Shown: one piece after another, positions 30,801 through 33,800 of the stretch
How the letters are laid out: the number at the start of each line of letters is the position of its first letter
Position numbering within the stretch: position 1 is the stretch's first letter
Origin: Amyelois transitella
Lineage: Eukaryota > Arthropoda > Insecta > Lepidoptera > Pyralidae
Reading direction: 5' to 3'
Assembly: GCF_032362555.1 (NCBI RefSeq)
Contig: NC_083514.1
Coordinates: forward strand, 3,953,001-4,017,000
DNA: 64,000 nt
Notes under the pieces: model-generated
What the model was told of the DNA's origin: nothing
Databases searched by the model: none
What the model saw: the letters and a program-made list of their open reading frames with translations, nothing else
Position numbers and translations under genes: made by a program

Positions 30801-33800
30801 CAAATGAAACAACTTTATATAATTATCACTTAACGGAAGATTTTAATCTTGATAAACAGATAGCTACACTTTTCGTTGGCACCGCTATGAGTTTGGTTTC
30901 ATAAAAGAGAGGGTGTGGAGTCAAAGTGCAGTAGTTGCCCTCTTGAATAAACCATCAACATCAACCATCTGATATAGTTGTCAGCATGTAAAACAATTGC
31001 ATTTACCGGTTTTAATTAGGATAAATGCAATGTAAAGTACTGTGTGATTTGTCCCGTATTTATTTATTTGATAAGATAAAAACAATACGGGTACTTTTGA
31101 GCCTGATAGTCATTACAAGGGTCAATGAAACACCATCTTTTGCACATGAAACCAACTCGGCTAAAGCTAAAAGCTATACTTATTAATGTTTTACTACATA
31201 TATAATTTAACGTCGACCTTAAAAAGCTATTTGCGTGTTCAAACTAATGTAAATACATACATATAATCACGTCTCTATACCTTACGGGGTAAACATCGTC
31301 AACAGTCTAGGAAATCAGAAAGGCCACGTTGCCAGCTGTACGGCTTGACGATGGATTTTCATATATTTGACGGCCTCTGTGGCGCAGCGGTAGTACGCTT
31401 GTCTGTGACACCGGAGGTCCCGGGTTCGAATCCCGGCCAGGGCATGATGAGAAAAGAAATTTTTCTGATTGGCCTGGGTCTTGGATGTTTATCTATACAA
31501 GTATTTATTATAAAATATAGTATCGTTGAGTTAGTATCTCGTAACACAAGTCTCGAACTTACTTCGAGGCTAACTCAATCTGTGTAATATATATCTAAGT
31601 AAACACAATTGTTTTCTTGTTTCAGCCTTAGTGATATACAGTTTCCTATCTCTCTGCTACGAGTACCTGGGCGGGGAAGGCAACATAATGTCCGAGTTGC
31701 GTGGGCGGCCGGTGCGAGCCTCGTGCGTCAACGGCACTTGTTGTCTCTCCGGCGCCACCTACACCATCGGGTTTCTGCGGTTCTGCAAACAAGCCACACT
31801 TCAGTTCTGTCTGGTCAAGCCTCTATGCGCCTTTATCATCATTTTCTTGCAGGTAATATTGAGCTATTATTTTCAGTTTTACTGATAGACTATCATCACC
31901 TATATCTTTGCTCTGGAACTGAGCATAATTTCTGAACTGCGGGCCTGTTGTGTAACACTCACTCTGGCGTCACCCTCACCCTTCAGTTCTGTCTCGTTAA
32001 ACCTCTATGCGCCTTCTTGCAGGTAAGATTCAGCTATTATATTTACCACCGTCGGGCTCCTCCTGTTATGGTGACTTCTATGAATGATTAATAGAGTTAG
32101 AAATGAGAGAGACGTCTGGAATATCCGCATTATATTTCCTTCTTATTGATCAAGGATATTACATAAAATTCACTATCGAATAAATACATATTACGAATTA
32201 CATATTACGAACTATTTTTTGCGAGTGTATTTGCACACAAAAAAACTGTCAGTCTATTAGAGGAATTAGAACGATTTTTGTAGTTCAAGATATTATGTTG
32301 CCAGCTGTTTCTATTCCCGCGCAGTTATGTCATTAAGAGAATTAATGTGCTAGAAACCTTCATAAACGATCAGCACCTGATGATATATCTAACATCTGTC
32401 TTACCCAATCCAGATTCATGGTCAAACGGGGCAACCTGGGCTCTTATCCAGAGAGGTTTGGAGTTAACCGGGTTTAACGTCAGATTGAAGAAAGAACGTT
32501 CTAGATAATAAAATCTAATATTGACCAGAACTACAAATATTTTCATAATTATTGTTCTTATCTTCGTATGTGGTACGTGCTTATCGATCGGACTTTAATT
32601 ATGATAAAGTGATTCACTTCATTGCGCTGTGACGTTCTAATACACTGATTAATGTTTATGATATAGGTAGTCACTTTCCTTGAAATGAAAAACAAATCTT
32701 TACATCTTCTTCCTATAAAAATATATTTACATCTTCTTAGCCTCCCGTAGAAATAGGGAAGTAAGTGAGTTCAACGATCCATAAGATTTTACCTCGCAGT
32801 ACTTTTTGTGATAAAAACTGACAGCTTATTATCAAGTGAAACCGAAAATGAGCCAGTAGCCCACATAGCAAATTATAATAAAATTTGGATAGTAGTAAAA
32901 TGTCTTAATGGCGTAGGTTAAGAAAATAATTAAGATTTCAAAAAATCGATTCCTTTGTAAAGAAGCTATTACTTATTCTGGGAAGAAAATATTTCAAAAT
33001 TATGAATATTCCTTATATATATGAATGAATAACTATTATTAATTATAAAAGTGATTCATTAAAATATATAATATTTATAATAAAGCTTAACATGTATGTC
33101 CTTTTAATCTTGGCACCATCGGCTTTATTTACCCCACAAGTGACAAAGGCATTATACTTATTTAATACGTTTTAAGTAATTTATTCATCATTCCAGGCGG
33201 CCGGCCACTACCGTGACGGCGACTGGAGCATCAGCGGTGGTTACATCTACATCACGATTGTGTCCAATTTCTCCGTCAGTCTCGCTCTGTACGGCCTGTT
33301 CATGTTCCTGGGAGCCACCCGCGAGATGCTGCAGCCTTTTGACCCCGTGCTCAAGTTCTTCACCGTCAAGTCGATCATCTTCCTCTCGTTTTGGCAAGGT
33401 TAGTTTTTGGTTTTTAACTTTCAGATGAAATCTAGGTATACCAGGTAGAAGAGACTGAAAAAATTTGGGTTAACATCGCAAGGGAAGCTTTGTTTGCGAA
33501 GTACAATGGGTAAATTTACATCAAGATCGTGTCAAACTTCTCCTCTATCAGTCTGTTCTGCGTGTTCTAAACCACTCGTGAGAATACTGCAGTCCTTTGA
33601 CTTTTGAAGACTAAATTTCTATTCATTTTAATATTCCCTCATCTACATGTTTCACTTATCATAGATTATTAATTTGTTGCGTTCTATCCCTCAAATCACT
33701 AGAAACTTTCGGATTCACCACTCGCACCTGAATGAGTACTAATTAAATTTTGATTGATAATAGATTATTTGACCAATTCCACACGCTGATGTAACATGAT

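Follow-up and report, generated by a model that had tools for sequence, protein, structure and literature searches.

Does the intron that follows exon 31626-31852 of a putative TMEM184 gene in the moth Amyelois transitella hold a young exon, or the remains of an old one? The earlier note on this DNA (a stretch of 64,000 nt, the window, to which all coordinates refer) proposed a possible 36-nt alternative exon born from a copy of the preceding exon. The origin from that exon (exon A) stands, and use of the segment as an alternative exon seems unlikely. We consider the copy (A') to be probably (with a likelihood of about 0.8) no functional novelty but a decayed relic left by tandem duplication of an exon, within which a 36-nt piece still looks spliceable.

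The host gene and its exons

A profile search places four forward-strand exons of the host gene in Pfam family PF03619 (Solute_trans_a, organic solute transporter Ostalpha), each with more than 24.9 bits and past the curated cut-off. Within this family the gene is putatively TMEM184, the subfamily name given in the earlier note. Exon X0 (30536-30701; E=3.7e-18 for 30539-30700) lies upstream of exon A, has splice sites assigned by eye and ends in phase 1. The parent exon A (31626-31852; 227 nt, phase 1 to 0) matches the family over 31628-31852 (E=3.1e-17) and has a weak donor, CAG/GTAATA, with a score of 3.14. It is followed by exon B (33197-33398; 202 nt, phase 0 to 1; E=2.1e-24 for 33197-33397) and exon C (33810-34045; E=2e-9 for 33812-34045), such that A and B combined are frame-neutral (phase 1 to 1). 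A putative first coding exon, E0 (ATG at 21809, end at 21958), and a putative exon D (35393-35477), also on the forward strand, are predicted from reading frame and splice sites only, and the assembled reading of the gene is 355 residues long.

A PDB search by sequence gives no matches at E up to 0.001, so that an insertion encoded by the 36-nt segment can be placed by hydropathy alone. Searches for relatives, with the exon B peptide against viral contigs and with a 276 aa spliced reading against genome contigs, also return no matches, an unsurprising outcome for an animal gene in collections of this kind. Our literature search found no paper pairing TMEM184 with Lepidoptera, a statement about that search and not a wider claim of absence.

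Several repeats are present nearby. Three copies of a tRNA-His-like repeat are found by ARAGORN and alignment at 31366-31520, 38690-38880 (reverse strand) and 62960-63140; the first has an Rfam tRNA match and sits in the intron before exon A, and the repeat looks like a tRNA-derived SINE. The intron before X0 contains at 29235-30150 a pair of 98-nt inverted repeat arms, 97% complementary and 720 nt apart, which resembles a DNA transposon or MITE; an acidic reverse-strand reading of 76 aa within this element matches no Pfam family (E up to 1). A blastn search with exon A and its 30-nt flanks aligns the acceptor region (31597-31645) with 16737-16784 on the reverse strand, 15 kb upstream (49 nt, 73%, E=0.003), perhaps a transposon remnant or an effect of composition.

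A tandem copy of exon A

The presence of a copy of the preceding exon in the intron is borne out, as none of 2000 dinucleotide shuffles of the intron matches the score to exon A. Two blocks align at 90% identity, 31977-32015 with 31795-31833 (39 nt) and 32014-32043 with 31844-31873 (30 nt). The earlier note described the copy over its last 14 codons; the homology is wider, beginning at the parent's TTTCAG and ending 21 nt beyond the donor. An affine-gap alignment pairs parent 31620-31873 with copy 31871-32043 on the forward strand, such that the TTTCAG at 31871-31876 pairs with the parent's TTTCAG at 31620-31625 and is followed by what is left of the exon (31877-32022) and then, 3' of the donor, by 21 copied intronic nt, of which 18 are identical to the parent and three are changed. 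Five gap settings were tried, and in the two with stricter gap extension the local alignment is reduced to the tail alone. The 5' part of A' taken without the tail block has a score reached by none of 3000 shuffles; the head alone is matched by one shuffle in 3000 in local and by none in global alignment, and the middle by itself gives a weak signal, its score being reached by 39 of 3000 shuffles in local and 77 of 3000 in global alignment. From these alignments and shuffles we conclude that A' derives from the complete exon A, of which 146 of the 227 nt are left, through a tandem duplication of about 251 nt.

Decay of the copy

The exon remnant has lost 81 nt net, with the net frame kept, and if it is spliced to X0 and read from its own ancestral acceptor it runs into an in-frame TGA at codon 20. 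The alignment contains 11 deletions and two insertions, or nine and one with other penalties, and depending on the gap penalty 5 of 13 or 4 of 10 gap lengths are divisible by three. The in-frame deletion in the tail, previously given as 9 bases, is in fact 12 nt long, as the spacing between the copies is 182 before it and 170 after it.

At the aligned codon positions A' differs from A by 12 synonymous and 10 other changes. Under a neutral model in which the copy drifts beside a conserved parent that accepts mainly synonymous changes, the expected synonymous fraction is 0.41 for A' (about 0.41-0.44 across A' and the exon B copy described below), and the observed ratio has P=0.14, or 0.25 and 0.28 in the two other settings that give a full alignment. 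Third codon positions are changed at 12 of 46 sites and first plus second positions at 10 of 94. The substitution pattern of A' as a whole fits a neutral copy, without clear sign of coding selection.

The tail of the copy

The tail of A' presents a different picture. As the earlier note had it, the last 14 codons show three synonymous and no amino-acid changes relative to exon A, and a fourth synonymous change (ACA>ACC) lies one codon before them, making four changes in 46 coding positions. The comparison of synonymous with other changes, here between copy and parent in this one genome, is divided, with a ratio of 4:0 for the tail (P=0.038, in the two settings that align it alone) and P=0.14 for A' as a whole. 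None of the 30 first and second codon positions is changed in the tail, compared with 10 of 64 in the rest of A', which is the full alignment minus the tail alignment (one-sided Fisher P=0.017); third positions are similarly diverged in both (4/16 and 8/30). Fourteen codons evolving neutrally would escape any amino-acid change with a probability of 0.11, 0.04 or 0.007 at copy divergences of 0.07, 0.10 and 0.15. The tail block was picked for its similarity and examined after the fact, and its P values are therefore flattering; the absence of amino-acid changes seems weakly improbable under neutrality. With 3 of 21 positions changed in the non-coding copied intron and 4 of 46 in the coding tail, conservation of the tail does not clearly exceed that of its neighbour. 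Gene conversion of the tail from exon A may also have occurred; it would fit the well-kept adjoining intron, but not third positions that are as diverged in the tail as elsewhere in A'.

The 36-nt candidate exon (31987-32022, forward strand) would use an acceptor ending at 31986, within formerly exonic sequence, and the donor CAG/GTAAGA, and would encode 12 residues. It is open and in frame between exon A, which ends in phase 0, and exon B, which starts in phase 0, in agreement with the earlier description. A junction from 30701 to 31987, also suggested there, proves unsuitable: X0 ends in phase 1 (GAA G), the frame is lost, and the reading continues GTT CTG TCT CGT TAA, with a stop after four codons. 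Insertion of the 12 residues falls after residue 181 of the 355-residue reading, at what hydropathy indicates to be the end of the most hydrophobic segment, and the 12-mer is itself hydrophobic on average (1.58) despite one Lys and one Pro.

Splice sites

Splice sites were scored with hand-written matrices and a hand-written branch-point pattern rather than with moth-trained ones. The donor is better in the copy than in its parent, as had been noted (7.15 and 3.14). It is the third best forward-strand GT in the window, one of the two better ones being the donor assigned to exon D, and its score is not equalled by any of 724 further intronic GTs counted in the host gene. At 31850-31858, then, it is the parent that carries the weak donor, and the relic the strong one.

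The acceptor ending at 31986, described as pyrimidine-rich, is present but mediocre: it scores 1.69, a value that 44 of 622 intronic AGs, this one among them, equal or exceed, and of the six listed acceptors of the gene five do better, only that of exon C being lower (0.78). Branch-point-like CTCAC motifs occur at 31958 and 31975, and the intron between exon A and the candidate would be 134 nt long. The ancestral acceptor of A' at 31876 scores 2.52, with one branch-point-like motif, TTTAT, at 31832. In 12.6 kb of intron there are 26 exon-like site pairs, defined as an acceptor scoring at least as high as that at 31986 and a donor at least as high as the parent's, 24 to 300 nt apart; 31987-32022 is the sole pair open in phase 0.

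A decayed copy of exon B

The intron downstream of exon B contains a decayed forward-strand copy of the core of that exon (B', 33507-33652), with in-frame stops. A blastn comparison with exon B finds 33507-33601 (E=1.1e-7), and the score of the alignment extended to 33652 is reached by none of 2000 shuffles. As the core is significant (none of 3000 shuffles) and the head and tail are not (2858 and 620 of 3000), the core alone is secure. The segment 33481-33582 keeps the frame of exon B, with a 32-residue reading that includes two stops (tblastn of exon B, E=0.013). Aligned identity to exon B is 74-78%, and 13 synonymous and 22 other changes are present (P=0.75; 0.55-0.77 with the other four settings), with 18 of 49 third positions and 17 of 94 first plus second positions changed. 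Gap lengths divisible by three number 1 of 12 or 5 of 11, according to the gap penalty. B' is clearly a dead copy. The divergences of A' and B' are of the same order and not equal, so the copies may differ in age.

Further copies were sought by comparing E0, X0, A, B, C and D each with one upstream and one downstream stretch on the forward strand, a total of 12 tests with 2000 shuffles each, except for 300 in the two for the 8.6-kb intron (E0, X0). The stretches before E0 and after D are arbitrary cuts rather than known introns, and the E0 and D used here end one base short. Exons A and B give clear downstream matches, C downstream is weak (p 1.3e-3) and D upstream has p 0.047; the remaining eight of the 12 tests are not significant. 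The match of exon C is a possible C' in the intron after it (35248-35269, forward strand), 22 nt with 91% identity to 33899-33920; one of 2000 shuffles reaches its score and the Gumbel p of 1.3e-3 is one of 12 tests, which makes it a lead only. A first, wider scan (six exons, eight stretches, both strands, 60 shuffles each) had given z>3 for exon A with the intron after B (3.7) and, on each of the two strands, for exon C with the intron preceding X0 (4.0 and 3.4), and these are taken as chance or composition.

Origin of the copies and alternative explanations

From the homology, extent and decay observed in A', its adjacency to exon A and the second relic, we infer the following order of events and an absence of function. 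A stretch of about 251 nt (31620-31870) that takes in exon A, the last bases of its acceptor and some 18 nt of the intron behind it would have been duplicated head to tail; TTT(T) is common to both sides of the duplication junction. The acceptor of A' lies 24 nt downstream of the donor of A, and at birth this gap was presumably too short for joint splicing, such that A and A' could have served only as alternatives, or A' was ignored. One explanation offered for mutually exclusive exons, in the parts of PMC5740500 used here, is potential steric interference when a donor lies less than 50 bp from a branch point. A' would then have lost its 81 exon bases and gained a stop, largely as neutral sequence, and B' is a relic of the same kind. 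The 36-nt tail would be the best-kept remnant, most likely no regular exon, with perhaps a low level of noise splicing. A single plain block duplication is incompatible with the order A A' B B', which suggests either two adjacent local tandem duplications or one complex event, followed by decay. Rearrangements of the DUP-normal-DUP kind are known from human genomes, and a single event of this type is a possible source of both A' and B'.

The evidence that sits least well with a relic is concentrated at the tail, with its lack of amino-acid change, its unchanged first and second codon positions, its in-frame deletion, and its strong donor in the sole phase-0 open pair among 26. The lack of amino-acid change, the open frame and the strong donor in that sole pair, together with the length of the upstream intron, the two CTCAC motifs and the hydrophobicity of the 12-mer, also speak for a working cassette exon, in which an mRNA joining A, the 36-nt exon and B would add 12 residues at the end of the 19-residue hydrophobic segment and so give a longer or kinked membrane helix. 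The acceptor is weaker than most in the gene, however, the exon would be very short, A' as a whole shows a neutral pattern, and the insert would bring one Lys and one Pro next to a membrane segment; we regard such an exon as unlikely. Still less probable is a fuller scenario in which one complex rearrangement copied two (perhaps three) consecutive TMEM184 exons, each in place, and so produced a double cassette of mutually exclusive exons, by now collapsed, with the 36-nt tail now a short exon lengthening a membrane helix. A' could alternatively act as a poison exon, by splicing from X0 to the old acceptor at 31876 or by extension of exon A to the strong donor, both of which lead to stops and thus to nonsense-mediated decay and less mRNA. 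The TTTCAG acceptor with its TTTAT motif and the donor are retained as this would require, but the 5' part of A' is without sign of constraint and the existence of the sites is the sole evidence, making this very improbable.

Compatible with a relic is the suggestion, itself doubtful, that A' and B' formerly functioned as mutually exclusive exons, were under protein selection for a while and then decayed together. Two exons in a row each have a relic at the same relative position, A and B are jointly frame-neutral, A' has kept its net frame, and B' keeps that of B over 33481-33582 apart from two stops. Against this, a synonymous excess is absent in B' and weak in A', gaps in multiples of three are not clearly enriched in either copy, and the divergence of the two is unequal (third positions 12/46 and 18/49, first plus second 10/94 and 17/94). 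Local tandem repeats are a common place for assembly errors, and the repeat might in principle join two alleles or paralogues by mistake; as the aligned copies differ from their parents by 9 to 26%, far beyond alleles, and contain numerous gaps and stops, and as the pattern recurs at two separate exons, this is scarcely credible.

Comparison with known systems

Unannotated intronic copies that stem from tandem exon duplication are already known (Letunic et al. 2002, as cited in PMC9013439; Ivanov and Pervouchine 2022, PMC9013439, in the parts drawn on here), and we claim nothing categorically new. Like the known cases, A' is a same-strand homologous copy in the adjacent intron with splice sites, with homology beyond chance (0 of 2000 shuffles), a head-to-tail arrangement and copied flanking intron. 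Unlike them, A' and B' are visibly decayed, and two consecutive exons each have a copy. For Drosophila melanogaster the portions of PMC9013439 used here give 0.08% as the share of exonic bases for which the extended gene holds a homologue of at least 80% identity; B' (74-78%) is under this cut-off and the figure is thus a rough yardstick only, by which exon copies such as A' and B' seem uncommon in a well-studied insect.

Mutually exclusive exons have been delimited by splice-site pattern, homology, an unbroken reading frame and length, with a default limit of 20 aa on the length difference (Pillmann et al. 2011, PMC3228551; see also PMC6071210; both as far as the excerpts used here extend). 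A and A' resemble such pairs in being adjacent and homologous, with GT-AG sites (AG at 31875-31876 and GT at 32023-32024 in A') and a 24-nt spacing too short for joint inclusion. They differ in that A', at 146 nt against 227, is 81 nt (27 aa) shorter, and in that its net frame is kept but interrupted by the TGA at codon 20.

Were the 36-nt exon in use, a failed duplicate would have yielded a salvaged exon. Taken as relics, the two copies would show the death of duplicated exons, twice in succession in one gene, and how a short frame-perfect fragment may mimic a new exon if only the best-kept end is viewed. We take both as probable lost exon duplicates, with which A' shares its frame shifts, in-frame stop and homology to the neighbouring exon, and from which it differs in having retained a donor that scores above that of its parent.
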